A stretch of DNA of 34,657 nt from a virus, in the IMG/VR virus record IMGVR_UViG_3300044716_000419, positions 1 to 34,657 of that record, one strand, 5' to 3'. The position numbers were made by a program, and so were the translations under genes. The notes below the pieces were generated by a model, which saw only the letters and a program-made list of their open reading frames with translations, ran no database searches and was not told the origin of the DNA. Every line of letters begins with the position of its first letter. Position 1 is the first letter of the stretch. This document shows, one piece after another, positions 4,099 to 32,898 of this stretch.

Positions 4099-6213
4099 CT
4101 ATCGCTGTCCTTGTCGTCTGAGGCCGTAGGTCGAAGTCATCGCGCGATCGAACTGGCCGCTCGCGATTCCGTCCTGGACGACCTTGCTGATATAAACGTC
4201 GATCGTCTTGCCGCCGTTCGGGTCCTGGCGTTCCTCGGTCCTTACTTCGCCGCCGGTCGCGTTGTAGACGTTGACGACAGTCGTCGATCCACCGCCCGAG
4301 GCCGAGACGCCGAGTTTCCCGTCGGATCCGCGCTTAAGTGGCATGATCGCTTCGGGACCCGCCTCAAAAGCGAGGCCTGTCTTTCCGCCCGCCATGGGGA
4401 ACGTCATCGGCGTATTGAATACGCCACCCTTCGCGAACGGGATCACGTTAGACGCACCCGCGGAGATCGACGAATCGAATGCGTTGCCGTTCGCCGAGGA
4501 CGTCCATCCGCCCGCGGTCGAACCGCCGGAGGGTCCAGTCGGCGAGAAAAACGACAGGCCGCTCATGGCCTGCTTTAGTGACTTGACCAGAGGCTCGACG
4601 ATCATCACCTGGAACGCGACCGCGGCCAGACCCTTTACTAGCTTGTTCATCGTGTCGGCGAAAGAGTCACCCGCGATCACCGCGGCCGTCATCGCCTGGC
4701 CCAGGAGTTGAGTAAATTCAGAGACCAGGGGAGTCGACTCGGCGAGTTTGGTTTTCGCCGACGCCATGGTCTCGTTGTATTGCTGCATACTGACCCGGCC
4801 GGCCTCATAGTGATAATTGAGGCGCTCCATGGTCCGGTCGTATTCCTCCAGGGGAGTCCTGGCCTGGCCGACCAGGGCGTTCGCATCGGCCTGGAGAATG
4901 TTCGCACGCTCGAGTGCTGCGTTTCTCTGGAGGAGGTTCTCGAGCGCCTCCTGTTGAAACTCGGTGTAAGACGTGACGCCGTTTTTCTGTTGCTCGCGCA
5001 GTTCGATCAGTTTCTTTTCTGATTCGGTCACTCGCTCGAGCGAGATCCGCCAGTTCTCCTGGCCGGACGTGAGGCGTCGATTCGTCTCGAGGAGTTCCTC
5101 TTGCTTGGCCTGGTAGCCGGTCGCGAGTTTCTCGAACGCGGCCAGGTCGCGCAGGAACTCGTCGAGGCTTTTCTTTGCCTCGCGCGCAGTACGATCCGCG
5201 TCGCGCTTGGCGTCCGCCTCGGCTTTCCTGCGCTCGCCGGTCGTGCGGAGTGGCCGGCCGCTGTTGACCTCGGCCAGGAACTTCTCGGTCTGCTTGACCG
5301 AGATCTCGAGTTGTCTCTGGCCGCGGGTCGCCTCGTTGATCGACTTCACCCAGGCCGTGAACTCCTTTGTCGGCTCCTTCGTGGCCGAGTAGATCTTGAC
5401 GACGGTCTCGAGGTAGTCCGTCGCGGAGATTTTCATATCCGCATAGGCGTCCTTTGCCTTGAGGATCTCGTCGACTTGCGATCCGTTGATATTCCAACCA
5501 GGCGCGAGGAGTTGCGGGCTGTCGAGCGGGACCGCGTTCCCGCGCAGGGGTCCGACTTCGCCGCGCGCGTCGGCCGCCTTGCTGTCCTGGACCGATTTCT
5601 TAAACTGTAACCAGGCGCGATTAAAGAATCCGAGTTTCTCGACGCCCTCCTCAATGCTTGCGATTAGACTCGTTCGCAGATCCACCGCGGCCACCTGGGC
5701 CAAGGTGATATTTAGCTGCATACTCGTCCGGATCAGTTTCTTAGTCTCGTCGTCCGCGTCGCGGTACTGTTCGATCAAAGGATCGAAAGACGATTCCGAA
5801 ACCAGGTCGAGCGCGGTCGCGAGATCTTTCTGCGCCTTGCGCGCATTGTCGGCCGCCTTCTCGAGTTCGATCGTCTCGTCTTTAAGTGCTTTGATCGCCT
5901 CGATCATCGGAGGCAGTAAAGCGAACGCGACGCCAATGGCCGCACCGACTGCACCGAAACCGCCCAGGAGTTGAGGCGCTTGCTGTCCGAAGGCGCGGAG
6001 CGCGTCCTGGCCGCCTGTCACCTGGACGATAAAGTCCTGGACTTGATAGCTTGCGTTCTGAACGCCGCGGCCCATTGTGGTCATGCCGCCGGCCGTGGTC
6101 GTCGCCACCGAACCCATGCCGCGCATGGCCACCGACGCGCGTTCGGCCTCCCTCACCGCCTGGGAGGCGTCGACCTGGATCCTGTACAGTAACTCGCGGC
6201 TTTCAGTTGCCAT
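4099..6213 (-). CDS. Tail length tape measure protein
   Basis: The 704-residue protein shows the layout of a tape measure. An N-terminal part has small-residue repeats and 'MGRGVQNASYQVQDFIVQ'. A hydrophobic segment (about residues 83-110) can be threaded through a membrane during DNA injection. A long charged, helical, coiled-coil-like middle follows. The C-terminal region contains 'AKGGVFNTPMTFPMAGG' and 'GPEAIMPLKRG', a hallmark of lambda-type tape measures. At about 0.15 nm per residue it predicts a tail near 105 nm, in the normal siphovirus range. No lysozyme or peptidase insert is visible. It follows the chaperone G/GT pair, as is standard. The ATG shares one base with the stop of a small upstream frame. 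Confidence 0.93.
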   Translation of the reverse strand: MATESRELLYRIQVDASQAVREAERASVAMRGMGSVATTTAGGMTTMGRGVQNASYQVQDFIVQVTGGQDALRAFGQQAPQLLGGFGAVGAAIGVAFALLPPMIEAIKALKDETIELEKAADNARKAQKDLATALDLVSESSFDPLIEQYRDADDETKKLIRTSMQLNITLAQVAAVDLRTSLIASIEEGVEKLGFFNRAWLQFKKSVQDSKAADARGEVGPLRGNAVPLDSPQLLAPGWNINGSQVDEILKAKDAYADMKISATDYLETVVKIYSATKEPTKEFTAWVKSINEATRGQRQLEISVKQTEKFLAEVNSGRPLRTTGERRKAEADAKRDADRTAREAKKSLDEFLRDLAAFEKLATGYQAKQEELLETNRRLTSGQENWRISLERVTESEKKLIELREQQKNGVTSYTEFQQEALENLLQRNAALERANILQADANALVGQARTPLEEYDRTMERLNYHYEAGRVSMQQYNETMASAKTKLAESTPLVSEFTQLLGQAMTAAVIAGDSFADTMNKLVKGLAAVAFQVMIVEPLVKSLKQAMSGLSFFSPTGPSGGSTAGGWTSSANGNAFDSSISAGASNVIPFAKGGVFNTPMTFPMAGGKTGLAFEAGPEAIMPLKRGSDGKLGVSASGGGSTTVVNVYNATGGEVRTEERQDPNGGKTIDVYISKVVQDGIASGQFDRAMTSTYGLRRQGQR

Positions 6214-7527: not shown

Positions 7528-8709
7528 TTAGTTTTTCCAAACGTAGATCGTAATCGAATTTCCCGCTGCTTGGTCATATTTTGCCGTACCTTCGATCGCG
7601 AGGCTTACCTGTTGATCGCGACCCTGGCTCGAGGGATCGGGGAAAGTTAACTGGACGGCCGGCATGGAGACCGCGATTCCGCCGTCTGCATTAGACGCGG
7701 AGAAAGCGATCGCGACCGGGGTCTGCTTGAGTTTTTCCTCGACCATGTAGAAATTCGAGTTCACCAGGTAGGAACTGGCCGAGACCGTCACGTTCGCGGA
7801 TCCCAGGCTGTAACCGTGAGGCGTGATCGAACCCATACACACCGAAGGCGTGAGACCGTTCGCCAGGTTGATCGTCAAGTTCTGGAAACAGAACCCGGCG
7901 TCCTCGCCGTTGAAAATCACGCCAGGGATATCGATCGAGGCGTTCAAGGGTTGAGTCGTCTCGGCCGGGTTGATTGTCTCGCCTGTCGTGACAGGGATCC
8001 CGCTCGGGCATACGGTATAACCCGCGCCCATGAAACCGAAATCACTCGTCGCGATCTCACCGTATGCGAACGCGAGGGTCATCGAGTTGACGAGCATTCC
8101 CGTGTAGTCGATCGCCTTGTCGGTCAGGTCGTTGAATTTCTTTTCGAACGTGAACGAAGGCTTATCCGTTCCGACGGTATAGCCGGCCGGACGTTTCACC
8201 GACGCACCGGCCGCCGTCTCGGCCACCGCTCCGCGCTTGGCCAGGATCATCGTTCCCGTTTCGTATGAGGTCACATAGCCCGCGCCGTTGTTCGACTCGT
8301 TCACGAAACCCGACAAAAGCACGATCTGGCCGGCTTCAAACATACCAGGCAGAAAGTCGCCGGAGGCGAGTTCCATCGAGGACTCGGATCCGACCGTCAC
8401 GTCCGCCGCGATCGGGAGATCCATCGCAGGGACCGAAGGCGTGTTCCGCATGAGCGCGCCAGAGATAAAGTCCTCGAGTTGTTGGCTCGGTGCGATCTCG
8501 GAGGCGATCGGGCCGCCGCAGTCCATACCGACGACCACCTGGCCATTATTTTCCCGGTGGCCCGCGATCATTTCGGACTGCGTGACCTGGGGCGTGCCAG
8601 ACAGGCCCTCGGACGTATAGCGCGCAGTATTGAAGGGAACGCCGTCGGGCGTCTTGTTGTATTCGGTTTCGCGAACGTAGTGGAGCGCGACCAGGTTGCT
8701 AGAACTCAT
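7528..8709 (-). CDS. Major tail tube protein
   Basis: The 393-residue product is the likely subunit of the tail tube. It starts at the ATG at 8709 (GGAG Shine-Dalgarno upstream), which overlaps the previous stop as TAATG. A longer GTG-initiated frame exists but would overlap the terminator gene needlessly. Beta-rich sequence such as 'GLSGTPQVTQSEMI' and 'GALMRNTPSVP' near the N-terminus matches the larger class of phage tail tube proteins (Phage_tube_2 type). The C-terminal half, with repeated Gly/Asn/Ser beta strands, may add an Ig-like surface domain. Its place between tail terminator and tail chaperones is canonical. Typical tube proteins are 150-400 residues, so it lies at the upper end. 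Confidence 0.82.
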   Translation of the reverse strand: MSSSNLVALHYVRETEYNKTPDGVPFNTARYTSEGLSGTPQVTQSEMIAGHRENNGQVVVGMDCGGPIASEIAPSQQLEDFISGALMRNTPSVPAMDLPIAADVTVGSESSMELASGDFLPGMFEAGQIVLLSGFVNESNNGAGYVTSYETGTMILAKRGAVAETAAGASVKRPAGYTVGTDKPSFTFEKKFNDLTDKAIDYTGMLVNSMTLAFAYGEIATSDFGFMGAGYTVCPSGIPVTTGETINPAETTQPLNASIDIPGVIFNGEDAGFCFQNLTINLANGLTPSVCMGSITPHGYSLGSANVTVSASSYLVNSNFYMVEEKLKQTPVAIAFSASNADGGIAVSMPAVQLTFPDPSSQGRDQQVSLAIEGTAKYDQAAGNSITIYVWKN

Positions 8710-9143
8710 TATGTATTCTCCGAGGAGTGGTTGATATGTTGGAAGGTTGCTACGGACGCCCATCCGGTAAAAGTCGCGCCCTGGCCGATCGCGGGAGGCG
8801 AGTCGTCCGAGGCAGGGGAAAATGATTCGATTACTACATGGCCCAGACGTTTCGCACGCAAAGCGATCCGCAGATTATCCGCGATTGTAATCGCCTCCCT
8901 CGATGGCCAGGCTCTCGGGATAATGACGTGGAATAGGATCAGACCGGACTCGAGGAACTCGTTCGCGGGAATGCTGTTCACGATCTCGCCAGGAGAGACG
9001 AACTCGAGGCCGACCCAGGGGAAATCGTTGTTCGCGGGAACCTCCTCGACGTCGCCGAAATCGTCCAGGACATAAACCGGCGTATAGGTCCAGTTCTGAG
9101 CGAACCAGTCGAGGATGGTCTGTCGGACTGTTGCGGACGCCAT
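8709..9143 (-). CDS. Tail terminator / tail completion protein
   Basis: This 144-residue protein precedes the tail tube gene and follows head closure, which is the tail terminator slot (lambda gpU-like). The sequence begins with a helix ('MASATVRQTILDWFAQNW') followed by beta strands such as 'PWVGLEFVSPGE' and 'LESGLILFHVII', the ferredoxin-like alternation of known tail terminators. Such proteins form a ring that stops tube polymerisation and docks the tail to the head. Its stop overlaps the tail tube start by one base. Identity is based on position, size and fold pattern. Confidence 0.7.
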   Translation of the reverse strand: MASATVRQTILDWFAQNWTYTPVYVLDDFGDVEEVPANNDFPWVGLEFVSPGEIVNSIPANEFLESGLILFHVIIPRAWPSREAITIADNLRIALRAKRLGHVVIESFSPASDDSPPAIGQGATFTGWASVATFQHINHSSENT

Positions 9144-9509
9144 CTAGACCCCGCACCGTATTTCGACCGCGATCGTCTGGCCGTTTACGGACCTGGTGAT
9201 CGGGTTCACATAGTCGGGGACGTAGGACTTCCCGCGCACGAATACCCGGTCCGCTTTCTCGCGGACCTGATAGGTCCCGATATCGGCCTGGAGCAAAACA
9301 ATATTGACGAACTTCGCGTCCAGTTCTCCGGCGACTTGCTCGAGGCCCGTCCGAATGCTCGACGGGGCCGTGACCCAGGCGCGCGCTTGGCCGACCAGGT
9401 TCCAGGTCGGGGGCGAGGTCGAGGCGTCGAGCGTGCGGACTTCGACCGTCTCGCCGTATCGCTCGATCATCTTTTCGTAGAGTGCCGCTGCATTTGTTGC
9501 GTTTAGCAT
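9144..9509 (-). CDS. Head closure / head-tail joining protein
   Basis: The chosen start is the ATG at 9509, which overlaps the connector stop as TGATG and gives 121 residues; a GTG three codons earlier is possible. The product is a small beta-rich protein with 'YEKMIERYGETVEVR' near the start and a phrase 'DRVFVRGKSYVPDYV' typical of head closure proteins related to SPP1 gp16 or HK97 gp9. These form the ring below the connector that retains packaged DNA and receives the tail. Neighbours on both sides fit this order. The ORF has no odd features. Confidence 0.68.
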   Translation of the reverse strand: MLNATNAAALYEKMIERYGETVEVRTLDASTSPPTWNLVGQARAWVTAPSSIRTGLEQVAGELDAKFVNIVLLQADIGTYQVREKADRVFVRGKSYVPDYVNPITRSVNGQTIAVEIRCGV

Positions 9510-10120
9510 CAGACCCACCTGTTCCGGTGTTGTTCGAGCGAATGCGCCACCAGGGCCGGGATTGCGCCATGCTGCGACGTGCCGCCGACCGTTCCCGCGC
9601 CTGCGCCCGAGGATCCGCCGGTCTCGTACTCAATCGATGCGACGCCGTAGACGGTCTCTTTCTTGACCGCGCCAAGCGCCGCGCCACCGCCCGCACCGGC
9701 TCCGCCCGTTCCCTGGGCGTTCCAGACTGCGCTCGCTGTTTGGATGATCGCGTACTGCGCCCAGGCCGGAAGGTTCAAATATCCGCCCATGTAAGAGACA
9801 ACCAGGTCGCCCTGGTGGCCAGAGCGCAGGCGAACCTCGCCCGAAGGCTTAACCACATATCCGGCTTCGTAGACGACAGGAAGGCCTGTCGCCGCGTCCA
9901 TCACGTCCAGGATCGCGTCGACCGGATAATTTTTCAGGACCACCGTATCCTGGCCGCGGACGACCTCGACCCAGTCCTCATACTTGCCGTATGAGAGAGA
10001 CCGGCCGAGATAGTCCTCGATCAATTCCTGCGAGATCTCGAGGGTCTGGGTAAGTGCTGCGTCCTGGGTGTCGTCGGTGATCCCCAGGAGGGCCTTAAAC
10101 AGTTCTAGGAGTTTATCCAT
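9509..10120 (-). CDS. Head-tail connector (HK97 gp6-like)
   Basis: The 203-residue protein starts with alpha-helices ('LLELFKALLGITDDTQDAAL' followed by 'EISQELIEDYLGRSLSYG'), the signature of gp6/gp15-like connector adaptors that dock under the portal. A short beta hairpin ('VVLKNYPVDAILDV') and another helix ('LPAWAQYAIIQTASAVW') follow. The C-terminal third is rich in Gly and Ala, possibly flexible, and makes the protein longer than HK97 gp6. It would bind the portal ring and prepare the head for head closure. The gene lies four bases after the collagen-like fibre, an unusual insertion between portal and connector. Confidence 0.75.
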   Translation of the reverse strand: MDKLLELFKALLGITDDTQDAALTQTLEISQELIEDYLGRSLSYGKYEDWVEVVRGQDTVVLKNYPVDAILDVMDAATGLPVVYEAGYVVKPSGEVRLRSGHQGDLVVSYMGGYLNLPAWAQYAIIQTASAVWNAQGTGGAGAGGGAALGAVKKETVYGVASIEYETGGSSGAGAGTVGGTSQHGAIPALVAHSLEQHRNRWV

Positions 10121-10123
10121 CGC

Positions 10124-12868
10124 TTAGGCTCCCTTGAGAATGGCGACTTCGGCCTTGAGCGCGTCGATCTCGGCGCGCATTTCGTCGAATAGCGCCTTCG
10201 CCGCGTAAGTCGCGTCGGCGTGGGCTTTACTGATTGCCTCGTCGCCGACTGGCGCGGTCGTCGGGAGTTCGATCTGGCCGGAGACCTTGATCTTTGTAGT
10301 CGCAGACCCGCGCCCGATCGTCGCGCCGCCCACCCCGATAACGATCGCGCCCGCGGAGTTCTGCGTCACGATCGGCTGATTAAACGTCGTGTTCGCGGCT
10401 GTTGTCGTCCAGAGGTTCGTCGAGTTGCTTCGCAGGGCGACGCCACCGGATCCGCCGAACATATTTAGCCCGGTAGTCCCCCAGGTGAACGACTGGACAG
10501 TCGTCGGGAGCGTGATCGTTCCCGTCATCGTGCCGCCCGTCGTGGGTAGCATCTTGTCCGCGTAGGCCTTATTTACCAGGTGATTCGCGTCAACCGGTGC
10601 AATATTGCAAACGGGGAGTTTTGTAAACGTCTGGATGCCCGCGTTTGATATAAAGATCCCGGTCAATCCGCCCGGCATTTGTAAGCGAACAGTCCCGACG
10701 GGGTCCATGTACCAATAAGAATCGACGCCATTAAAACTACTAATCTCCGTCGGAGGTAGTCGCAGAGGCGCGCCCGTTGCGGAAACCGATCCCCAGAGTA
10801 GAGTCCCGTCCGCTGATACGCCATTGACGTATTGATTCGCGGTATGCGTGCCGACCTTAATTCCACCCAGAACCGTCGAAGTCGCGACCGGGAGCGTATA
10901 ACTTGATCCCGCCGAGAGCGTGCCGTCCGCGGTCACGGTCAGGCCTGCGCCGACCTTGATTCCACCCAGGACGGTCGCCGTCGCAGGCGAGAGAGTCGCC
11001 GAGGAGGACGCCACCAGGTTGTCGACGTAGTCCTTCGTCGTTGCGTGTAGTGCTGAAACAGGCGCTCCGCTCAGAGAGAGCGGGCCGGTCATCGTGTCGC
11101 CCGCTCGTCGCACGCATTCGCTCGAAGGCGTGGCCGAGAGCGTGCCATCGAGCGCCATGCTCAGACCCGAACCGACCTTCATTCCGCCCAGGGTCGTATC
11201 GGACGCCACCGGGAGAACGTACCCGCCGGCCGCGAATTGTGCGTCGACGTATTGTTTCGTCACCGCGTCGAGAGGCGCGACAGGATCCGCGGGTAAAAGG
11301 ATCGGTTTATATGATTGGTGCTTGTTTATGCCCAGGTGTAAAAGGTTCGCCGTACCGTTGCGGAAGTACAGGCCGGCCACAGATCCGATCACATTAAAAC
11401 CGGACGCGTTTTGGATCATATTCACGCCGTTGGGGAAATTGATCGTCGCGGGCGCGACCATCGTTCCACCAGAGAGCGGGAGATATCCGGAGAGGTCTGT
11501 CGCGGGCGTATAGAGGAACCCATCGGATCCGATCGTCGACGTATTGCCGGCGTCGGACGAGGCCACCGTAGGACCGGCAGGCCCCTGAATGCCAGGTACG
11601 CCCTGGACGCCAGGGACGCCCTGCGGTCCTTGTACGGGTCCCGCGTCGACCCAGGCGGCCGTCTCCTCATCCCATACGAACCCGCGCGCGGGTGCGGGTT
11701 CTGAGACGACCCAGAGATCGCCCTGGGCCGCCGTGGCCGGAAGTTCGCTCTCTGTTGCAACCGTTCCGCGGTAGTTGATCCCCATACCCGCGGGACCCTG
11801 GATCCCCGGAGGTCCCTGGATGCCAGGCTGTCCAGGGATGCCCTGGTCGCCAGGCGGTCCGGCGGGCCCCATCGGGCCAGGAGCGCCGGCCTCGGGTACG
11901 CCACCACCACCCGCGCCCCCCATGCCACCGTTCAGGCGTTGCCAGTAACGACCGGCCTCGCCTGCGTCCATGATCGAGGAGACAGGCGCGATCCCGTCCT
12001 TCGGGGTTGCCCGACAGATAAAGGGCGCGCCCGCGTAGATCACCAGGTCGCCCGAGTTGTAGTCGGTTCCCGATCGCCAGGTCCCGCGGTAGAACCGCAA
12101 GGGAACCGCGTTATCGTCCTGGGGCGTGAATAGGTCCTTGACGACAGTCGCCGCGATCTCGCGCTCGATATCGCTCGAGTGCGCGCGCAGACTGCGCTCG
12201 ATCACGTCGCCCAGGTCGTAGACGACCGTCTGGCCGTCCTTGCCGACGACGATCGCGTCGTCCGTAATTTCGAACAGAGTGATCCCATGGCCATCGCGGC
12301 CGTGGCGGCCGTCCTGGCCGTCGATCCCGTCTTTCCCGGCCTTGCCTCTCTGCGCGAGCATTTTCGCCTCGCCAGTAGGTAGGACCAGGAACGAGGTCCC
12401 GCTGTCGATATAGATATCGCCAGGCGCGTATTGTTTGCCCTCGGCCTTGACGCCCGTCCATTTGAACCCGAAGGTCCCGACGCGCGACCAATCCTCGCCC
12501 TCGCCTGGTTCGGCCACCGTGTCCGAGGCCGCCTTAAAGATCTGGCCGAAGTTGTGCATCACCAGGTCGCCGGCTCGATAGACTGCGCCGGCCGTCCAGG
12601 TCTTTGTCTCAATGCCTGCGCCGGCCTGGCCGGCCTCGCCAGGCTCGCCTCGATCGCCCTGGTCGCCCTTGGTGATCTTGACGAACTCGCCGTCCGACTT
12701 GAGCGCGGCCGTCACGTCCTCGATCGCGACCTCGACAGGATCCGCGTCGCGGCCATCACGGCCGGCCGGTCCTGGAGTGCGTTCGATCTGCTCGACTGCT
12801 TTCTTGATCTCGACGATCTGGTCGACGATTGGCTCGAGGGATTGCGCGAGTGCTTTCTCAATCGACAT
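10124..12868 (-). CDS. Collagen-like fibre, probably head or neck fibre
   Basis: This 914-residue structural protein combines fibre modules. A short helix is followed by collagen-like Gly-X-Y tracts around residues 32-42, 68-85, 172-195, 325-361 and 409-429. Carbohydrate-module-like insertions between them contain 'VYRAGDLVMHNFGQIFKA' and 'YNSGDLVIYAGAPFICRA'. The C-terminal half holds repeats found in tail fibres: three copies around 'GGTMxxP/G' and three around 'VLGGIKVGxGL...DGTLSA'. It ends with heptad-like helices ('EMRAEIDALKAEVAILK') that could trimerise it. The start overlaps the portal stop by one base (TAATG), so it is translated with head genes. Its place between portal and connector argues for a fibre on the head or neck rather than the tail tip. 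It probably binds host surface or mucus-like glycans, which is inference. Confidence 0.78.
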   Translation of the reverse strand: MSIEKALAQSLEPIVDQIVEIKKAVEQIERTPGPAGRDGRDADPVEVAIEDVTAALKSDGEFVKITKGDQGDRGEPGEAGQAGAGIETKTWTAGAVYRAGDLVMHNFGQIFKAASDTVAEPGEGEDWSRVGTFGFKWTGVKAEGKQYAPGDIYIDSGTSFLVLPTGEAKMLAQRGKAGKDGIDGQDGRHGRDGHGITLFEITDDAIVVGKDGQTVVYDLGDVIERSLRAHSSDIEREIAATVVKDLFTPQDDNAVPLRFYRGTWRSGTDYNSGDLVIYAGAPFICRATPKDGIAPVSSIMDAGEAGRYWQRLNGGMGGAGGGGVPEAGAPGPMGPAGPPGDQGIPGQPGIQGPPGIQGPAGMGINYRGTVATESELPATAAQGDLWVVSEPAPARGFVWDEETAAWVDAGPVQGPQGVPGVQGVPGIQGPAGPTVASSDAGNTSTIGSDGFLYTPATDLSGYLPLSGGTMVAPATINFPNGVNMIQNASGFNVIGSVAGLYFRNGTANLLHLGINKHQSYKPILLPADPVAPLDAVTKQYVDAQFAAGGYVLPVASDTTLGGMKVGSGLSMALDGTLSATPSSECVRRAGDTMTGPLSLSGAPVSALHATTKDYVDNLVASSSATLSPATATVLGGIKVGAGLTVTADGTLSAGSSYTLPVATSTVLGGIKVGTHTANQYVNGVSADGTLLWGSVSATGAPLRLPPTEISSFNGVDSYWYMDPVGTVRLQMPGGLTGIFISNAGIQTFTKLPVCNIAPVDANHLVNKAYADKMLPTTGGTMTGTITLPTTVQSFTWGTTGLNMFGGSGGVALRSNSTNLWTTTAANTTFNQPIVTQNSAGAIVIGVGGATIGRGSATTKIKVSGQIELPTTAPVGDEAISKAHADATYAAKALFDEMRAEIDALKAEVAILKGA

Positions 12869-14220
12869 TAAGCGACCTTTTTATTCAATAGTTCAAAGAC
12901 GAGCGCGCGAGCGATTACCGGGTCGAATTGCTTTTCGTTGTCCTCGGGCGGATCTGCGGGCGGGTCTTTCGGTGGAGTCATGGGGGCGGGAGGCTCGGGC
13001 TTGAACCCGAGTTCGACCATCTGTTGCTGCAAGTAGGGCTTGTCGCCGTGTTCGACAGGAGGCAGACCCTCCTTATCGCGCGCCTCGTTCGGCGTGAACA
13101 GGCCGCCCTGGATCGCCTTCGTCAGGCCATCGATGCGGCCGGCGAAGTCAGTACGCAAGAGCGCGGAGACGTCGAGTTCGGTGTACTCGTTGGCCGCCAG
13201 TTCAAACGCGGAATCCAGAGACCGCTCGATGTTCTCCAGGAGTGAACCCAGGGAGATCGATAGCCACATCGAGATCAATTGTTCGGTGTTGCTCATGGTG
13301 GCCTTAGACAGGTCGCCAATGATCGGGAGCGGTACGCCAAACACGCGCGCGATATCCTCGATACTCATGCGCTGAGACTCGATCAGTTGCGCGTCGACCG
13401 AGTCGACTCCGAGAGGCTGAAACTTCAGGCCCGCGGAGAGAATCGGCATTCCGCCTTTACTCCAGAGTTTCGACTGTTCGTCGAACAGTTCGCGCAGGCG
13501 CGCCGTCTGTTCCTTCGTGAGGACCTGGTCGGTCGACAGAATGCCGCTCGGGCGATTCATGTTCCGAAAGAATGTCGCCTGGGTCTCAGACAAGGCGACG
13601 TTGATTCCGACCGCGATCGCGGCCGCCTTAATAGGCGACTCGCCGATCAGAGGATGGCGTGGCGTATGCGTGCGAAAGTGGATCACGTCGCGCGCCGGGG
13701 CCATGTAGTCGGTCGTCTCGGGGAGCATAGGGTTCGAACCCACCGAGTAAAAGATCGCGCCCGTCACCGGCTCGACGTAAGGCATGAACGAACCGCGCGG
13801 CATGATATGGAGCGCGGTCGGTGCGCGACGGTCGTCGCGGACAATGATGCAAACACATTCGCCGTCGAATAGCATTCTGGCGACGACGTTATAAATGAAC
13901 TGATTCCAGGTTTCGTATGCGTTCGGCGAACGCAAGAGACGCGCGACCGCGGTCGTCGTCATAATTTCATGCTTGCCCTGGTCGTTGATCCGTTTCTGGT
14001 GCGGGTAGCATTGGCTCGCGGCCCTGGCGAATGCCATCACCGACGCATAGACGGCCGGGACGTTGCGCGCGCCGATCCCGGACATATCCAGGTTTCGCTG
14101 ATACCCATCACCGAACGGGATCGAGTAGACGCCGCCCAGTTCACCGACGCCCATCGCAGGGCCTCGATACGTTCCCTCGGCTCCCGAGAAAAACGTCTTA
14201 ATTCTGGCGGCCAGTCCCAT
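12868..14220 (-). CDS. Portal protein (HK97 family)
   Basis: The 450-residue product forms the dodecameric ring through which DNA enters and leaves the head. Family features include an N-terminal 'GVYASV'-like segment (here 'NVPAVYASVMAFARAASQ') and the central phrase 'HFRTHTPRHPLIGESPIKAA'. Also present are 'PSGILSTDQVLTKEQTARLRELFDEQ' (split by family consensus) and 'DIARVFGVPLPIIGDLSKAT', all typical of HK97-type portals. The C-terminal tail is Pro/Asp-rich. It starts immediately after the small gene downstream of capsid. In most HK97-like phages portal precedes protease and capsid; here it follows them. Confidence 0.93.
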   Translation of the reverse strand: MGLAARIKTFFSGAEGTYRGPAMGVGELGGVYSIPFGDGYQRNLDMSGIGARNVPAVYASVMAFARAASQCYPHQKRINDQGKHEIMTTTAVARLLRSPNAYETWNQFIYNVVARMLFDGECVCIIVRDDRRAPTALHIMPRGSFMPYVEPVTGAIFYSVGSNPMLPETTDYMAPARDVIHFRTHTPRHPLIGESPIKAAAIAVGINVALSETQATFFRNMNRPSGILSTDQVLTKEQTARLRELFDEQSKLWSKGGMPILSAGLKFQPLGVDSVDAQLIESQRMSIEDIARVFGVPLPIIGDLSKATMSNTEQLISMWLSISLGSLLENIERSLDSAFELAANEYTELDVSALLRTDFAGRIDGLTKAIQGGLFTPNEARDKEGLPPVEHGDKPYLQQQMVELGFKPEPPAPMTPPKDPPADPPEDNEKQFDPVIARALVFELLNKKVA

Positions 14221-14499
14221 TTAGTTGTCGCCCTTGTTCGAACGACGCTTAAACAATTTCCGAGGCGTCATCTCTTTGGTTTCGTATGGGGCCTCGGTGG
14301 CCTCTGCGGCCTCCTGGCGGACTTCGTAGGCCGTGGCCAGGGGAGTAAGCGTATCGATGCGTCGGAGCGCGTTCGCGCCGACTGCGGGATTCTGCGCGTG
14401 GCCATCGGCCACCAGTCGCTCGGCGAGGGTCTTGTCGATATCGACGAAACCAGTCCGGCCATTTAATTCGGTGATTTTCTTGTACGCCCAAACTAGCAT
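14221..14499 (-). CDS. Unknown head-region protein (92 aa)
   Basis: I chose the ATG at 14499 because AGAGG lies seven bases upstream and the longer frame reaches into the hairpin region. The product starts 'MLVWAYKKITELNGRTGFVD', contains 'LAERLVADGHAQNPAVGA' and ends in a basic segment 'RKLFKRRSNKG'. The N-terminal part resembles short alpha/beta modules found next to capsid genes in other phages, but I cannot name a family. It lies between capsid and portal, downstream of a strong hairpin, and could be a minor head component or decoration protein; this is inference from position. Confidence 0.6.
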   Translation of the reverse strand: MLVWAYKKITELNGRTGFVDIDKTLAERLVADGHAQNPAVGANALRRIDTLTPLATAYEVRQEAAEATEAPYETKEMTPRKLFKRRSNKGDN

Positions 14500-14521
14500 T
14501 TCGGACCTCTCTTTCGTTATG

Positions 14522-14557
14522 CGATCACTCGCGAGGGCATTCCCTCGCAAGTGATCG
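14522..14557 (-). terminator. Strong RNA hairpin after the capsid gene
   Basis: Two 16-base arms (14522-14537 and 14542-14557) enclose a four-base loop, starting ten bases after the capsid stop. The one mismatch in DNA becomes a U-G pair in the minus-strand transcript, so the RNA stem is unbroken. No U-tract follows, so it may stall or partially terminate transcription, or protect the capsid mRNA 3' end, rather than act as a full terminator. Confidence 0.72.
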
Positions 14558-14566
14558 ATTTACTGC

Positions 14567-15880
14567 TTACCAGGCGACGTCTGTAATGGTCTGAACGCCA
14601 CCGGCGCGGCCAGTCGCCCAGTCCACATTCCAAAGCGCGCGCAGAGCGGACGTATTGGTCTGGAACAGGGATTTAACTGGCGACGCGGCCACCGAACCAT
14701 TGATATCGAGCGGAGTCGTGTCCTCATAGTGCAAGGTCGCGACTTCGGTTCCCATGAAACGAGGAGTCCCGCCGGCGAAGGCGACTTCGGACGCATCGAT
14801 CAGGTAAACGATATCGGCCGGGACGTTCGTCGAAGTGACGACAGGGATCCCGATCAATTGGCCGTTTTGCATTTCAGGGAAAGCGATCCCGCCGACCGCA
14901 TTGGTCGAGAGTTGCAGACCCCAGGCGCGGGCCGGGTGCATCACCCAGACCGGACGACGGCCGAGGTTCTGCGAGGTCATCGCCTGCAGGCGACCGCGCA
15001 AGTCGGCCGTAATCGAACCGACGTCGGTTCCTGTCGAGACGGCTGTATCGCCGGCCGCGAGGCCGACCTGGATACCCGCGGGAGAGATACCGGGGACGCC
15101 GGCGTTCGCGCTCAGAAACGCGATATCGAGCGCCTCGGCCGTGTCCTGGATCATGGCATTACGAATAACGTCCATGATGTTCGGGGTCGAACGCTCGAAC
15201 AGTTCGTTCGAGAATGCGGAGATCACGCCCAGGCTCTTAGGTGTAAGAATCTTGGATTCGAACGCCATTTGCTTGACTGGGATCGGTGCGCCCTCTGCGC
15301 GGAATGCGCCGTCCAGGCGAGCGCCTGATGCGCGGCCGGGGATCTTGATCGACTGGTATCCGTCGAACGTGTAGCTGTTCAGGCCCAGGCGAGGAACGAC
15401 CGACTCAGGACGCAAGAGGTCCATAAATGCGGAATATGTATCCCGCACAAGCTCAGCGGCCCACCCCTCGACCGAAGTCAGAGCGGGAGCGGTCACGGCC
15501 TTAGTCACCAGGGCGACGGACTCGTCACCGGCGAAACGCTTTTCCAGTACGGACTGGACGGACGTCCGGTTCGTATGGGATTCGGCCGCGGCCAGGGCGG
15601 CTTTGAACAGGAGGTCGGCGCTTGCCTTGCTACCCATGTTTTTCGACTGGACGACTGAGGCGGACGCGGGATTCGCACGCGAGGCCAGAGCGTTCTCGGC
15701 TTTCTTGAGTGCGTCGACAGTTGCGGCTTTTTTCTCTACGTCGCCGGAGAGAGTCTCAACCTGGACCAGGAGAGATTCGTCGTCGGGAGTGTCCTCGAGG
15801 GACTTAGTCACGGCGACCAATTGGTCTTTGAGACCCAGGAGTTCGGCCTCTGCGGCCTTAATGCGTTCTGCGAGGTTCAT
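14567..15880 (-). CDS. Major capsid protein, HK97 fold, with N-terminal scaffold (delta) domain
   Basis: The start is the ATG at 15880 (AGGA eight bases upstream, four-base gap to the protease stop), giving 437 residues; the longer frame would overlap the protease. The first 100 or so residues are charged and helical ('LAERIKAAEAELLGLKDQL' onward), matching the delta/scaffold domain that HK97-type phages remove after assembly. The remaining sequence has the HK97 pattern, including 'VVPRLGLNSYTFDGYQSIKIP', 'FERSTPNIMDVIRNAMIQD' and 'WVMHPARAWGLQLS' (each a short excerpt). The preceding gene is the matching protease, so cleavage around residue 100 is likely. A large hairpin follows the stop. 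Confidence 0.93.
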   Translation of the reverse strand: MNLAERIKAAEAELLGLKDQLVAVTKSLEDTPDDESLLVQVETLSGDVEKKAATVDALKKAENALASRANPASASVVQSKNMGSKASADLLFKAALAAAESHTNRTSVQSVLEKRFAGDESVALVTKAVTAPALTSVEGWAAELVRDTYSAFMDLLRPESVVPRLGLNSYTFDGYQSIKIPGRASGARLDGAFRAEGAPIPVKQMAFESKILTPKSLGVISAFSNELFERSTPNIMDVIRNAMIQDTAEALDIAFLSANAGVPGISPAGIQVGLAAGDTAVSTGTDVGSITADLRGRLQAMTSQNLGRRPVWVMHPARAWGLQLSTNAVGGIAFPEMQNGQLIGIPVVTSTNVPADIVYLIDASEVAFAGGTPRFMGTEVATLHYEDTTPLDINGSVAASPVKSLFQTNTSALRALWNVDWATGRAGGVQTITDVAW

Positions 15881-15884
15881 TTGA

Positions 15885-16436
15885 TTATTTCCTAATGGTG
15901 CGATTGGCGCGGAGAATCGCCGCCTTCGCGATTTTGATAATGGCTTCGTGGTTTTTGCCGGACTCGGCATTTTGGGCGTGACCATTGGACAGATCGACGC
16001 CGAAACTTTTCGCGATTTGCATCGCCTGGGGATTACATGGGACCGAGACGACGGACGTCTCGAGGAGTTCGATCGCGTCGAACTGGAGGCCGCCCTTTTC
16101 GCGAGGCGTGCCGCGACCGCGGAACCCGACGCTCGCGCCCAGGGGCGTATCGATCGCCAGGAGCGCCTTAATCATTTTCGAGAGACTGGTCTCGGCGAGT
16201 TTAAGATCGGCCGCGAGTTTCGTCCCGACCATGCGGAGATTCGTCCATTTGCCGACCGGGAGCGCGCTGTCGTGTTGCCAGAGACAGATCACCTCTTGAC
16301 CGACTAGCGACTTGAGCGCCTTAGTCGAAATCACGTCACCGGCGCGGTCCACCGCGTCCGAGGAGATAACCCAGGTCCCGTCGTATTCGGGCGACTCGGC
16401 TTTCTGAATGCCTACCGGGAGACTTTTTGTCTGCAC
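15885..16436 (-). CDS. HK97-type prohead protease
   Basis: The 183-residue product belongs to the herpesvirus/HK97-like prohead protease group (U35/S78-type fold). The active-site His is H55 in 'CLWQHDSALPVGKW' and the nucleophilic Ser is probably S128 in 'LLETSVVSVPCNP', which matches the family pattern of a Ser before a Val-rich strand and Pro-Ala/Cys-Asn-Pro. 'GASVGFRG' is another family phrase. It should cleave the capsid scaffold domain inside the prohead. The ORF starts with GTG after a weak GGTGG site. It is preceded by an internal promoter and a leader hairpin, so expression may differ from that of the terminase genes. Confidence 0.88.
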   Translation of the reverse strand: MQTKSLPVGIQKAESPEYDGTWVISSDAVDRAGDVISTKALKSLVGQEVICLWQHDSALPVGKWTNLRMVGTKLAADLKLAETSLSKMIKALLAIDTPLGASVGFRGRGTPREKGGLQFDAIELLETSVVSVPCNPQAMQIAKSFGVDLSNGHAQNAESGKNHEAIIKIAKAAILRANRTIRK

Positions 16437-16628: not shown

Positions 16629-18248
16629 TCACGCGATCAAGGCCTCGATATCGAACCCGGCCATCTCGAAATTGGCGCAGGGATGAGCGGCCATCACCGA
16701 GGCCACCAGGACGTCGATCCTCTGCGTCGACTTGTTTTTCGCCAGGGTCCGGCCACCGGCCCGGTCCATTTCGACGACCGCACTCGCCGCGCCTAGGTTC
16801 AGGAGCGGGTGGCCGCCGTGATAGATCCGTTTCTGGAGGAGTAGCGTCTCGAACGTCTCCAGGCGCGGAGACATATCCCGAAACGACTGGCCGACCTCCT
16901 GAAACTCGGCGTCCTGGGCGAACCCGGTCCTCTCGGCCGCGGCCTTCAGGACGTCAATGCGCCATCGATCGTACTGGACGCTAGTCAGGGCGACGCCCTT
17001 CTCATGCAACCAGTCGCGCAAGTAAGCACATAACCAGTCGTAATCGATCGTCGGCCCTGGGACCGCGATCAGGTAGCCATCGCGAACCCAGGCCGAATAT
17101 GGGGCCTTGTCGCGTTTCTCGCGCTCGCGGATCCCGTCCTCTGGCGTGAACGCGAGCGGGACCAGGTGAACGCCGCCGTCCGGGTCCCTGGCCGCCAGGA
17201 CGCACGCGGTCAAGTCGGTACGCATCGAGAGATCGAGGCCGGCGTGGACCTCGGCGTCTCGGAATACGGAGAGATCCGGGGGCGACGAACAGGCTTTCCA
17301 GACCGTCGGGGCCAACCAGAGCGCGGCCTGGGCGACGCGCCTGTTCAGGATCAGGTTCTCGAATGAGGCCTGGGAACTCGGCAGTCTGAGCGCCTGCTCG
17401 GCCTGCATACGGATATCCTCGGCGCTCCTGAACTCGCCCACCGCCGGACAGGCTTGCGCCCAGGCTTTAGGGTCGTCTAGCGCGAGATCCTTGTCGGCCG
17501 TGTAGACGTGACAGACAACCTCCGGCGACGGTGCTTTCGTCGCGTCATCGATGGCCACCGACAGAAAATCGGCATCACTCGGGGCCTGGGTCGAAATGAT
17601 GATCGCGAGCGGGTTCTCATGCGCGCCCTGGGACGTGAGGAGCGCATCGATAAAGGGATGATTCGGGCCGACCACCTGGCCCCATTCGTCGCCGACGATC
17701 ACGGCCGGCGACAGACCCATCGCGCGACCGGCCTCGGCCGCGAGTGCCTGGTACTCGATCCCGGTCCGAAGTGCGACGATCCGCTTGCCGGAGTGGACGC
17801 TGCGAAATAGTCCCTGGAGCGTGGGCGAGAGTTGGAGGCTCTTGCTCATGTAGTTGTAGACGAGCGCCGCCTGGTCGCGTCCAAGTGCGGCCGAGTTGAT
17901 CCTCGAGTTCTGGCGGATCAAGTCGCGCATAAACATAAACGCGATCATCAAGGCCGCGATTACGGTCGTCTTGCCGGCCTTGCGTCCGACCGACAGGATC
18001 GCGCGCCTGGCGCGCACCGGCCCGTCGAATATCGACTGGATGAAAACCTCCTGGAACAAAAGGAGGCGCATCGGTTTCCCGACCAGTTCGCCCTCGGGGA
18101 CGACGACGTGGGTCTCAATGAACCGACAGACCTTTTCGCCCAGGCGTAGCTTTTCCGTCGGGAGTGAGCGCCAGTCGCGCAGCTTGGGGACGTGGCCCGA
18201 CTTGATCGCCCCCAGGACGACCGGCGAGACCTTGACGCGTCGCCTCAT
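16629..18248 (-). CDS. Terminase large subunit
   Basis: The 539-residue product is the ATPase/nuclease motor that packages DNA. The ATPase has a variant Walker A 'GRKAGKTT' at residues 88-95, Walker B 'PAVIVGDEWG' at about 181-190, and a coupling motif 'IIISTQAPSDADF' near 218. The C-terminal RNase H-like nuclease includes 'AGLDLSMRTDLTA' (metal-binding Asp), a central Asp in 'VQYDRWRIDVLK', and 'RIDVLVASVMAA' near the end. This fits the HK97-type Terminase_1 group, many of which use cohesive ends. ATG and the small-subunit stop overlap as ATGA. HNH and small terminase genes just upstream complete the packaging module. Confidence 0.95.
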   Translation of the reverse strand: MRRRVKVSPVVLGAIKSGHVPKLRDWRSLPTEKLRLGEKVCRFIETHVVVPEGELVGKPMRLLLFQEVFIQSIFDGPVRARRAILSVGRKAGKTTVIAALMIAFMFMRDLIRQNSRINSAALGRDQAALVYNYMSKSLQLSPTLQGLFRSVHSGKRIVALRTGIEYQALAAEAGRAMGLSPAVIVGDEWGQVVGPNHPFIDALLTSQGAHENPLAIIISTQAPSDADFLSVAIDDATKAPSPEVVCHVYTADKDLALDDPKAWAQACPAVGEFRSAEDIRMQAEQALRLPSSQASFENLILNRRVAQAALWLAPTVWKACSSPPDLSVFRDAEVHAGLDLSMRTDLTACVLAARDPDGGVHLVPLAFTPEDGIREREKRDKAPYSAWVRDGYLIAVPGPTIDYDWLCAYLRDWLHEKGVALTSVQYDRWRIDVLKAAAERTGFAQDAEFQEVGQSFRDMSPRLETFETLLLQKRIYHGGHPLLNLGAASAVVEMDRAGGRTLAKNKSTQRIDVLVASVMAAHPCANFEMAGFDIEALIA

Positions 18249-27119: not shown

Positions 27120-27264
27120 TATCGACAAATTGAACCGGCCGATCTGGCCAGGGTTCACCCTGAAGGACTGCGCCCGTCGGGAAGGCTCCCTCGAGATCCT
27201 GGACGCGCCCAGTCGCATCCATGGGACCCTGTTCTATCCCGACGGCCGCATGGTGAAAGCATGA
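27094..27264 (+). CDS. Small unknown protein (56 aa)
   Basis: The frame starts at the ATG at 27094, with AAGGA nearby, and ends with a four-base overlap (ATGA) onto the nuclease gene, supporting a real translated gene. The product includes 'LNRPIWPGFTLKDCARREG' and 'APSRIHGTLFYPDGRMV', a small beta-rich domain. No known family was recognised. It may be part of the recombination set by context only. Confidence 0.55.
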   Translation: MSEPVKVSDIDKLNRPIWPGFTLKDCARREGSLEILDAPSRIHGTLFYPDGRMVKA

Positions 27265-28430
27265 CGCCGATCCCTGAACGCTCAAACACCACCGCCCAGG
27301 CGATCGTGAAGTGGTGGGGAAAGAAACCCCAGGGGAACCGCCCCCACCTGGGCGCGTCGCAGATCGGGAAGTCGTGTTCGCGCGCGCTCTGGTACTCGTT
27401 CCGGTGGGCTAAGACTCCGGCCTTCGAGGGTCGTATGCTGCGCCTGTTCGACCGCGGGAACCTCGAGGAAACCAGGTTCGTCGACGAGTTGCGCGCGATC
27501 GGCGTCGAGGTCTGGGACCTGGACCCGGACACGAACAAACAGATCCGCATCGAGGCCGTGAATGGTCACTTCGCGGGTTCGTGCGACGGAGTGGCGAAAG
27601 GTCTCCCGGAGGCCCCGAAGACCGCCGCCGTCCTGGAGTTCAAGACTCACGGAGACAAGTCGTTTACGACCCTGGAATCGAAAGGCGTCCAGGTCGCGAA
27701 ACCGGAGCATTACGCCCAGGTCCAGGTCTACATGAAGTTCCTCGAACTGGACCGCGCGCTCTACCTGGCGGTCAACAAAAACACCGACGCGCTCTATTCC
27801 GAGTGGGTCAAGTTCGACGCGGACGCGGCCGACCGCCTGGTCGCGAAGGCCGAGGCGATCATTAACGCGACGACGCCCCCCGAGCGTATGTCAGACGATC
27901 GGGATTTTTTCGAGTGCCGGTGGTGCGACTTTAAGGATCTCTGTCACGGCCAGGCAGTCGCCGAGGTGAACTGTCGGACGTGTTGCCATGCCTCGCCCGT
28001 TGAGAATGCCTCCTGGCGTTGCGAGAACCATAATCGGATCATCGCCGAAAAGGTTCAACGTGAGGCGTGCGACGACCACATCTATATCCCGCCCTTGATT
28101 CCGTTCGCGCTCCCGATCGACGGAGGCAATGGCTCGATCACTTACCAGGTGAAAGGCGCGGACCGCACGTTCACCAATAGCGCGACGCCGGGCCATTACA
28201 AGAGTCGAGAGATTTTCCTCCTGGATCCTTCGCTCCTGGGCGATAAATTGGTCGACGACATGAAGGAGATTTTCGGCGCGGAGGTCACGGCCGGGAACTC
28301 GCTCGCGGAAATGCCCGACGACCTGGAGGCCGTGTACGCGGAGGACAAGTCGCCGGCCGGTAAGAAAGCGAAAAAGGAGATCGAGAAAAACAAGGCGTCG
28401 ATCGCCGCCTTAAAGGGAATGAAACCATGA
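27261..28430 (+). CDS. Cas4-like PD-(D/E)XK exonuclease with an iron-sulphur cysteine pattern
   Basis: The 389-residue protein has the nuclease signature D109 in 'FAGSCDGV', E126-x-K128 in 'VLEFKTH', and 'YAQVQVYM' (Y151, Q153), as in RecB/Cas4-type PD-(D/E)XK nucleases. C39, C219, C222 and C228 are spaced as in the 4Fe-4S cluster of Cas4 and AddB proteins. A second cluster (C238, C241, C242, C254) may bind zinc. The C-terminal half has a Lys-rich end. It probably acts as the exonuclease that makes single-stranded ends for Sak4/DUF669 annealing. Gene order fits; activity and cofactor are inferred. Confidence 0.8.
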   Translation: MTPIPERSNTTAQAIVKWWGKKPQGNRPHLGASQIGKSCSRALWYSFRWAKTPAFEGRMLRLFDRGNLEETRFVDELRAIGVEVWDLDPDTNKQIRIEAVNGHFAGSCDGVAKGLPEAPKTAAVLEFKTHGDKSFTTLESKGVQVAKPEHYAQVQVYMKFLELDRALYLAVNKNTDALYSEWVKFDADAADRLVAKAEAIINATTPPERMSDDRDFFECRWCDFKDLCHGQAVAEVNCRTCCHASPVENASWRCENHNRIIAEKVQREACDDHIYIPPLIPFALPIDGGNGSITYQVKGADRTFTNSATPGHYKSREIFLLDPSLLGDKLVDDMKEIFGAEVTAGNSLAEMPDDLEAVYAEDKSPAGKKAKKEIEKNKASIAALKGMKP

Positions 28431-30570: not shown

Positions 30571-30879
30571 TTAGGTGATCCCCAAGGCCGCGAGATCGGT
30601 CTCGGTGAGGCCCAGGGCCGTTAGCTTGGCGATCGCGTCGGTCTTGGCTTGCTCTTGCGCGCGCTTGGCCGCGGTCTCCTCTTTCGTCGGAGGAGGCGGG
30701 TCCTGAAGGACCGGGTAGCCCCTGCTATCGGCGACGATTTCCTTGCCGTTCGATTGCCCGTCTAAAAGGTCCTTCCATTCTTGCTCGGTGATTTCCACAA
30801 CATCGGCCGGAATGCTCTCGCCGTGAATTTCAGCGTTATAAAAACCGCCTGTTTGTGCTGAATAAAAATATATGTTCAT
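30571..30879 (-). CDS. Tail fibre assembly chaperone (Tfa-like)
   Basis: The 102-residue product starts at ATG 30879 with AAGGAT upstream. The N-terminal part, 'MNIYFYSAQTGGFYNAEIHG', followed by 'IPADVVEITEQEWKDLLDGQ', matches the Tfa/gpK-type chaperones of lambdoid and P2-like phages, which help fold the fibre tip and may stay bound to it. The C-terminal part is a helical, Lys/Glu-rich segment. It follows the receptor-binding fibre, as is usual. The upstream end is more AT-rich than the head genes, like the fibre gene before it. Confidence 0.85.
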   Translation of the reverse strand: MNIYFYSAQTGGFYNAEIHGESIPADVVEITEQEWKDLLDGQSNGKEIVADSRGYPVLQDPPPPTKEETAAKRAQEQAKTDAIAKLTALGLTETDLAALGIT

Positions 30880-30890
30880 GCTGTTTATCC

Positions 30891-31559
30891 TTAATAGCCA
30901 AGAGCAAACCATCTGATTGCGGCCACAACGATCCCGCCTTCAGTCATTACAGTAAACCCTGTATTTGATGCGCCGCTCGTCGAAACTGCGACCGCAGAGG
31001 TGAAATCTGAGGTAATGACGAGCGACAGTCTGGCTGTGGGGAACGCAATGGGGAAAGCGAACCCTGTATTGTTTGGTATAGAGAGCGCAGACCCCCATTG
31101 CAAAATAATCCCGCCGGGCAGCCTTTGATACCCGTTTGTGTTTTTTGACTGTGTACGAAAATCGCGCAGATTGACTAGGTTGTCGTTGCCGACATACACG
31201 TCACCTTGCAAACCAATACGCGGGATCGACGTCGTATTCGCTGCGGATTCCGCCGTAATAGTCGGCTGTCCATCCGTGAAAAAGTGCAGTCTAAATATAT
31301 TGTCGGCCCCCGTGTACAGGTTCCAAGTGTTGTTATTTGACTGTTCTGTTAACCCAAGCTTTCCGCCGTTCGTAATATAGGCGTCACCGCTCACGGCCAA
31401 TTTGATATTGGAAGGATAAGCGTTCGCATCGTTTATCTGGAGGCTGTTTGAATAAATCGCCCCCGGCATGGTCATCGTGTCCCCAGGGGAATACTCCCCC
31501 AGGGCCACAATGTCAGTCCCGGAATAAACCGGCTTGACTGGATTTCGTGACTCTGCCAT
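30891..31559 (-). CDS. Receptor-binding tail fibre protein
   Basis: The 222-residue protein has an N-terminal attachment part ('ALGEYSPGDTMTMPGAIY') related to that of the preceding fibre. Its C-terminal domain has 'NGYQRLPGGIILQWGSAL', 'TGFAFPIAFPTARLSLVIT' and an ending 'AIRWFALGY', the pattern of gp53/gp37-like fibre tips that bind the host. It is followed by a Tfa-type chaperone. The gene is visibly more AT-rich than its neighbours, with many TTT, AAT and ATA codons, which suggests a modular exchange of the tip. Confidence 0.8.
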   Translation of the reverse strand: MAESRNPVKPVYSGTDIVALGEYSPGDTMTMPGAIYSNSLQINDANAYPSNIKLAVSGDAYITNGGKLGLTEQSNNNTWNLYTGADNIFRLHFFTDGQPTITAESAANTTSIPRIGLQGDVYVGNDNLVNLRDFRTQSKNTNGYQRLPGGIILQWGSALSIPNNTGFAFPIAFPTARLSLVITSDFTSAVAVSTSGASNTGFTVMTEGGIVVAAIRWFALGY

Positions 31560-31572
31560 TTCTTTCCCCTGG

Positions 31573-32886
31573 TTAAATGTTGGCGATCGGCTTCAGAGCG
31601 CCGGACGTGTCATAAAAAGGCATCGATCCGAGTCGGACCGTGGCCTTAACTTCCTCGATCGCGGCCTGGACGTTAGTCGCCACAATCCCACCGGCCGGCG
31701 CGAACCCGATCGCGGTCGCCGCGTGGGCGTTCGTGGCCTGGTTGATATGCGCGTCGAGGTCGCCCTGCGATAGCGTGTTCGCCTCGACGTAGGCGATCGC
31801 GTCCTGGACGTTCGTCGCGGTAATAGCACCGACGGGCGCGAAGGTCGTCTGTTGTGCGTTGTAGTCGCCGGCTGTTGGCAATACTGCGCCGGTGCGGCCC
31901 TTAAACGATTCGACGCCACCAGGAGCGGCCTCGAGCGCGTCCAGGCGTGTATCGACGCTCACCAGGGCGGCGTCCGCCTGGTCGATTGCTGCGTCGACGT
32001 TCGTCGCGGTGATGTAGGTGTTACCAGTCGGGTCGTAGGTAGTACTGGCCGCCGTCGCAGTACGCGCCGAGTAGTCGAAATGGACCCAGGCCGAACTCGG
32101 CTTGTGATAGATCAACCAGTCGCCGACCAGGACGTTCGCGCCCGCTGCGTCGCCGACAGTTCGCGCGCCTTCGGTGTTGAAAATAAAGTAATGACTGGGA
32201 CCGGCCGGATCTGGATCGGCCGGGTCTGCGTCGTTGAACCCGATCAGGCCCATAAAAACGAGGCCGTTCGTGGCGGACGCGATCAGGGTCGCCAGTTCCT
32301 CCATGCCGCCCTGGACGTTCGTCGAGGTCACGCCTGCGACGTTCGTAGGATCAAGCGTGACCAGGTTCGCCGCGTAGTCGCCTGCGGCCGGGACGACCGC
32401 ACCGACGCGCGTATTAAAGGACGTCACCGCGCCGGCCGCCGTGAGGTACTGAGTCGCATCGAGCGCCCAGGTGTCGGCCGCTGTCTTACGCAAGAGGCCC
32501 GCCGTGTCGGCGATCCCTGCGATTGCTGTCAGGTCGCCGTCGAGCGGCTGATATAGAGTCGCCGCCGCGGAGGCGTCGAGTTTCTCGGTGTCGAGTTCGT
32601 CGAGCGCGCCCTGGACGGTCGTCGCGACCAGGCGATTCGCGCGGCCTGTTGCGACGTTCGTAATCTGGCCGGCCGTGTAGTCGCCGTTCTGCGCGACGAC
32701 GTCGCCGGTGCGCGTGAATACGCTATTAACAGACCCGCCCGCACCAGGGACGAACGCGGTCGTCTGCGACGTACCATCGGCGAACTTAATCGGGCCGGTC
32801 AGATCGAGCGTTTCGCCCGCCGTGAACTCGCCGAGTCCGGTGTAGTTGTTCGAACCGTCTTTAATTCCTTTGACTGCGATAGACAT
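31573..32886 (-). CDS. Repeat-rich tail fibre shaft protein
   Basis: This 437-residue protein is built from repeats. Three copies of a segment with the form F-x-x-R-x-G-x-V-x(5)-GDY occur, and several 'TNVQxAIEE' type units ('TNVQDAIAYVE', 'TNVQAAIEEV'). The Ala/Thr/Asp-rich body and trimer-like repeats are typical of tail fibre shafts. 'LVFMGLIGFNDADPADPDP' is a distinct central insertion. Its N-terminal 'YTGLGEFTAGETLDLTGPI' is similar to the start of the next fibre gene, which suggests duplication. It lies after the 160-residue fibre-base protein. Confidence 0.78.
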   Translation of the reverse strand: MSIAVKGIKDGSNNYTGLGEFTAGETLDLTGPIKFADGTSQTTAFVPGAGGSVNSVFTRTGDVVAQNGDYTAGQITNVATGRANRLVATTVQGALDELDTEKLDASAAATLYQPLDGDLTAIAGIADTAGLLRKTAADTWALDATQYLTAAGAVTSFNTRVGAVVPAAGDYAANLVTLDPTNVAGVTSTNVQGGMEELATLIASATNGLVFMGLIGFNDADPADPDPAGPSHYFIFNTEGARTVGDAAGANVLVGDWLIYHKPSSAWVHFDYSARTATAASTTYDPTGNTYITATNVDAAIDQADAALVSVDTRLDALEAAPGGVESFKGRTGAVLPTAGDYNAQQTTFAPVGAITATNVQDAIAYVEANTLSQGDLDAHINQATNAHAATAIGFAPAGGIVATNVQAAIEEVKATVRLGSMPFYDTSGALKPIANI

Positions 32887-32898
32887 TTTGATTTCCTT

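Follow-up and report, generated by a model that had tools for sequence, protein, structure and literature searches.

Gene order at the portal–fibre–connector junction

The window, that is, the whole stretch of 34,657 nucleotides analysed here, encodes on its minus strand, in this order, TerL, a protease-like ORF, the major capsid protein, a 109-aa ORF, the portal, a 914-aa fibre, a gp6-like connector, two small joining proteins, a tail protein, the tape measure and J. Their positions, and that of the cassette following J, are:

16629–18248 (−), TerL
15885–16436 (−), protease-like ORF, named from its position
14567–15985 (−), major capsid
14221–14550 (−), 109-aa ORF in the capsid–portal interval
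12868–14220 (−), portal, 450 aa (Pfam Phage_portal, PF04860, 4.5e-76)
10124–12868 (−), collagen-like/CBM5/12 fibre gene, 914 aa (ORF; Pfam CBM_5_12 and Collagen; Gly-X-Y content far above shuffles)
9509–10120 (−), gp6-like head-tail connector, 3' of the fibre gene (Pfam Phage_connect_1, 1.9e-7; PHROG)
7528–8763 (−), tail protein
4099–6213 (−), tape measure
2–2989 (−), J, N-terminal part, residues 1–996
33368–34657 (−), J, C-terminal part (74% identical to residues 1000–1158 of a relative's J)
30571–33438 (−), tail-fibre cassette after J, four ORFs (Gp53-like_C, phrog_188)

Searches of Pfam and PHROG with the 109-aa ORF returned no match. Residues 1–998 of the relative's J match the left-end part at 2–2989, and the record, with J split over both ends, has the appearance of a permuted genome of ~34.7 kb that is nearly complete. 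A phage integrase (29033–30145, minus strand) and a PD-(D/E)XK/Cas4-like nuclease (27261–28430, plus strand; a weak match below the Pfam cut-off) are also encoded, and given these two ORFs the phage is probably temperate.

The portal stop and the fibre start have one base in common (TAATG), and the connector starts 3 bases past the fibre stop. The range singled out in an earlier note on this DNA, 10124–14220, spans portal and fibre together. Its description of a 914-residue ORF with Gly-X-Y tracts and fibre repeats, overlapping the portal by one base, is borne out by the ORF, the TAATG junction, Pfam and the shuffles described below, as is its placing of the fibre among head-tail joining genes, with the portal on one side and the gp6-like connector on the other.

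Architecture of the fibre

The fibre contains 36 Gly-X-Y triplets in total, whereas 10,000 composition-preserving shuffles averaged 1.4 and never exceeded 16. The runs occupy residues 68–85, 175–195, 314–325, 328–363 and 414–434, of which 314–325 is Gly-rich and less collagen-like than the other tracts. Pfam matched CBM_5_12 (1.4e-8; 35.1 bits against a cut-off of 26.2) and Collagen (1.9e-6, above cut-off), while Phage_head_fibr (PF11133; 1.3e-3) fell below its cut-off (18.6 against 24.6 bits). The portal domain PF04860 was absent from the fibre in the Pfam search, although relatives of the fibre are annotated as portals, and a PADLOC search gave no match. The NCBIfam Scl adhesin was rejected, its matches covering Gly-X-Y only and lying far under cut-off. 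From N- to C-terminus, the parts of the fibre are:

12788–12862 (−), N-terminal helix, residues 3–27 (AF2 helix, low pLDDT; similar segment in related loci)
12614–12667 (−), Gly-X-Y tract 1, residues 68–85
12464–12619 (−), CBM5/12-like module A, residues 84–135 (AF2 pLDDT ~83–94; structural match to ChiB)
12350–12466 (−), small beta module B with a Y..GD motif, residues 135–173 (AF2 strands, pLDDT ~82–89 up to residue 170)
12284–12346 (−), Gly-X-Y tract 2, residues 175–195
12119–12283 (−), short beta element and helix, end of the conserved core, residues 196–250 (AF2 low pLDDT; alignments)
11924–12103 (−), CBM5/12-like module C, residues 256–315 (best Pfam CBM_5_12 stretch 263–287)
11780–11887 (−), Gly-X-Y tract 3, residues 328–363, 12 triplets
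11567–11629 (−), Gly-X-Y tract 4, residues 414–434 (Pfam Collagen 413–450)
10229–11491 (−), distal fibre, residues ~460–880, with GGTMTG...TKxYVD and LGGIKVG repeats (PHROG tail-fibre profiles)
10130–10228 (−), C-terminal helix, residues 881–913 (AF2 pLDDT ~65–75)

Across 16 sequences, W127 of module A and G150 and D151 of module B are invariant, and several short family members terminate near the equivalent of residues 196–250. The N-terminal helix is a putative docking or trimerising segment, and the C-terminal helix, as modelled, likely forms a coiled coil. The distal fibre showed weak matches to the phi29 head fibre (3qc7) and to phage hyaluronidases.

The AF2 model of residues 1–330 was good for the small beta modules only, and the monomer model of the distal fibre was unreliable (pLDDT 32.5). 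Module A superposed on the chitin-binding domain of Serratia ChiB (VIA-align Z 7.8, 1.9 Å over 49 residues) and on ChiC (2d49; Foldseek probability 1.00, 1.2 Å, E 0.026), and module C on the tail fibre of cyanophage A-1(L) (VIA-align Z 6.8, 1.6 Å over 50 residues). These scores are modest, with Foldseek E-values above 0.001 and Z values below 8, which can reflect a common arrangement; we accept the CBM5/12 fold because the sequence profiles agree. CBM_5_12 matched 12 of 16 relatives at E≤0.01, and the A3 profile also matched Cis13 of an Anabaena contractile injection system (7b5h, E 6.6e-6). Surface-glycan binding by the predicted CBM5/12-like modules is plausible; since modules of this type also have a structural role in tail fibres whose structures are solved, their likeness to CBM5/12 makes sugar binding by the fibre putative.

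Conservation of the portal neighbour

Scans that used the fibre, the portal or an alignment of portals as query gathered the related loci, 46 of them in the widest scan. Whole-fibre searches returned one distant match among genome contigs, and likewise one by tblastn against named phages, so that relatives were reached via the portal. After removal of duplicate contigs, we counted 38 loci, the window included, that extend at least 450 nt past the portal. A profile of the core, built from 16 core sequences, so that about half of the matches are independent of it, matched an ORF overlapping the portal stop in 36 of these 38, the overlap being that of the open frame, as the start codons of more divergent members are not all fixed. 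The two loci missed by the profile (L032 and L037) have the same build by eye, bringing the total by profile or eye to 38/38. Because similarity of the portal was the basis for choosing the loci, this conservation is a property of the clade.

Members share an N-terminal helix, Gly-X-Y, CBM5/12-like modules and again Gly-X-Y, and range from ~200 to 1517 aa; core-only forms (roughly 200–400 aa) are common, and others, including that in the window, carry a long distal fibre. The longest Gly-X-Y run per member varies from ~5 to 71 triplets, the latter spanning about 61 nm if folded as a triple helix. The gene holds the same portal-adjacent position in Salmonella FSL SP-016, E. coli prophage-like phages, PAJU2, RHph_X2_26 and SOVA965. 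No such gene is present in the annotation of Acinetobacter fEg-Aba01, where the order is portal–protease–capsid. The PAJU2 record flags some proteins as structural, the neighbour ORF007 not being among them, and our search of the available literature turned up neither mass spectrometry nor microscopy of any family member, nor a paper on a collagen-like protein adjoining the portal.

Divergence of core and distal parts

Among 14 genomes with long forms, pairwise identity of the core followed that of the portal (Spearman rho 0.84), whereas that of the distal part did so weakly (rho 0.34); both values are descriptive, as the same genome enters several pairs, contig ends truncate some distal parts, and the border between core and distal part was set by motif. 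The window and L005 are 50% identical in the portal, 38% in the core and 60% in the distal part, and along the alignment identity is 90% at residues 351–400 compared with 26–45% in residues 1–250. Conversely, L007 and L015 are 93% identical in the portal, 81% in the core and 48% in the distal part, the last shortened by a contig end. These patterns indicate that the distal part is swapped between phages while the N-terminal core co-diverges with the portal.

Tail fibres encoded after J

Among the products of the cassette that follows J are a tail fibre matching Gp53-like_C (2e-14) and, by its match to phrog_188 (2.3e-25), a tail-fibre assembly protein. Further ORFs stand directly after J in relatives L005, L021, L022, L033 and L010; in L005 and L010 these include an S74 fibre chaperone (Pfam), and the other post-J ORFs are called fibre-like from sequence alone. 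The earlier note had remarked that most siphovirus fibres lie after J. That rule holds for this phage too, through the cassette at 30571–33438, and because an ordinary tail-fibre cassette occupies this place, the portal-side fibre is an additional one.

The alternative weighed first, a displaced tail fibre, is disfavoured by the post-J cassette. In this alternative the protein would sit at the tail tip, its gene merely being placed among head genes. PHROG tail-fibre profiles do match the fibre, and lactococcal phage TP901-1 is a case in which gene order is a poor guide to location. Against a tail-tip location stand the separate fibre genes and tail-fibre assembly gene after J, the co-variation of the core with the portal and a gene order kept in all 38 loci by profile or eye, and we regard it as very unlikely.

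Portal fusions and annotation of the neighbour family

In named phages, members of the neighbour family are annotated as hypothetical proteins or as portals. The FSL SP-016 neighbour (L053:7254–8297) matches phrog_1289 over its full length (2.8e-146) as well as the end of phrog_2271. The "portal protein" phrog_1289 would thus represent the neighbour family and does not look portal-like, its name probably stemming from adjacency, and phrog_2271, which covers portal and neighbour, appears to be a fusion profile. In this way a structural gene annotated in many phages and prophages as "portal protein" or "hypothetical" gains an identity.

Physical fusions also occur. In Moraxella Mcat9 a CBM-like module is carried on the portal's own C-terminus and the following ORF is small. 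In two E. coli phage records portal and neighbour form a single ORF, with G6 near the junction versus G5 in a split relative; this comparison is doubtful because a difference in a G5/G6 run invites sequencing error. RefSeq holds an intact fused protein (WP_001513216.1) and flags two other copies as frameshifted portals, a label that is perhaps wrong. That an unnamed, widespread family of portal-coupled neck fibres employs the G5/G6 run to let one E. coli genome make both split and fused forms, with the portal itself carrying the adhesin, is a long shot. Some E. coli prophages encode portal and neighbour in a single ORF and others in two (L081, near 3001; L082; L083–L086), and DNA resembling an E. 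coli portal–neighbour pair occurs in 1236 of the 5426 complete genomes of this species.

The fusions cut both ways. They link the module with the portal, yet the portal C-terminus is generally internal: in HK97-type portals it lies in the crown, inside the head, so that such fusions could be directed inward. A precedent for action inside the head is SPP1 gp7, one of the known portal-adjacent minor head proteins of this type. The neighbour might be an internal, portal-bound protein whose core sits on the portal crown or which is packaged and ejected, its collagen- and CBM-like modules being structural. Besides this precedent and the fusion of a module or the whole neighbour to the portal C-terminus in some phages, the short members without a distal fibre speak for such a protein. 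It accords poorly with the tail-fibre repeats and lengths of up to 1517 aa in others, with distal swapping between phages and with rods as long as about 61 nm in certain members, which would be hard to fit straight inside the head and so disfavour an internal place for the long forms. As a reading of the whole family we consider it quite improbable; the short forms, given the portal fusions, may have an internal, portal-bound role.

Proposed role at the head-tail junction

We regard it as moderately likely that the protein is a homotrimeric fibre of the portal vertex or neck, with a core fitted to its own head-tail junction and an exchangeable distal part acting as an outward adhesin; trimerisation, virion location, orientation and binding are what we infer here. 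In such a scheme, the overlap of the fibre ORF with the portal would keep production of the two proteins in step, and the homotrimer would be built into the particle at the portal vertex or neck. Its core of ~250 residues (helix, short collagen-like rod, CBM5/12-like modules and second rod) would be matched to the head-tail junction of the phage that encodes it. The remainder, the distal part with a third CBM5/12-like module, further Gly-X-Y, fibre repeats and the C-terminal coiled coil, would project outward and contact surface polysaccharide reversibly, aiding adsorption beside the tail-tip fibres.

Among the readings considered, the head or neck fibre suggested in the earlier note has the strongest comparative support, from the portal–fibre–connector order, the overlap, the co-divergence of core and portal, the separate tail fibres and the portal fusions, but short members need not protrude. 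The proposal is strongest in synteny, co-divergence and separate tail fibres, and weakest in location and orientation. A purely structural element of the neck or collar, serving in gating, stabilisation or head-tail joining and having no adsorption role, with CBM-like folds that only trimerise or space, would agree with the frequency of core-only short members and with Cis13, a protein that binds the baseplate by its N-terminal domains and within which the module match lies. The large, exchangeable distal regions of the long forms argue against it, and we think it unlikely.

Comparison with known fibres

The closest functional parallel to the proposed neck fibre is the neck passage structure (NPS) of lactococcal phages (TP901-1, 936 group), whose extra fibres at the head-tail junction have a conserved N-terminus, a variable C-terminus with carbohydrate-binding modules and lengths of 500–900 aa, and which is reported to be non-essential and associated with the portal vertex (PMC6669499; PMC4493119); for the portal neighbour the location is deduced from synteny and co-divergence. 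In the NPS, a BppU-like beta-sandwich forms the collar and a coiled coil the shaft, whereas the portal-neighbour family combines helix, collagen and CBM5/12. No BppU-like N-terminal beta-sandwich was found in the AF2 model, which has a helix followed by Gly-X-Y and no strand of at least 3 residues before residue 102 (low pLDDT). In TP901-1 the NPS gene lies after the baseplate genes (PMC4493119), unlike the portal-neighbour gene, which overlaps the portal gene, and because of this placement gene position is imperfect evidence for location. We accordingly file the portal neighbour as a proposed head-tail-junction fibre built from different parts, not as a member of the NPS. A core that tracks the portal combined with an exchanged distal part would make it simple to recognise from sequence a second adhesion device of siphophages, placed near the head and akin to the lactococcal collar.

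The phi29 head fibre gp8.5 (PF11133) has a similar LGGIKVG-type repeat (phmmer E 0.23 to 3qc7), but the likeness is confined to this short distal repeat and below the Pfam cut-off, and the core has no match. Collagen-like fibres are also carried by E. coli O157:H7 prophages (EPcl proteins; 933W L0121) (PMC3368898; PMC5155283). The EPcl proteins use PfN/PfC/Pf2 fibre domains (PMC3368898), for which Pfam gave no match in the 914-aa fibre at E≤1, and Sp5 ORF67 is classed as a tail fibre, unlike the portal-adjacent fibre.

Cis13 (7b5h) resembles the fibre in having a CBM5/12-like module in a trimeric, fibre-like protein. In the Anabaena injection system it attaches to the baseplate through its N-terminal domains, and the module match falls within Cis13. 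It differs in belonging to a tail-like machine without a head and in having no reported collagen part. Comparisons with Cis13, A-1(L) and a Dhakavirus show that CBM5/12-like modules serve in virion fibres. The Dhakavirus gene (L054:2344–3849) lies beside hoc, carries a related CBM5/12-like stretch and possibly encodes another head fibre.
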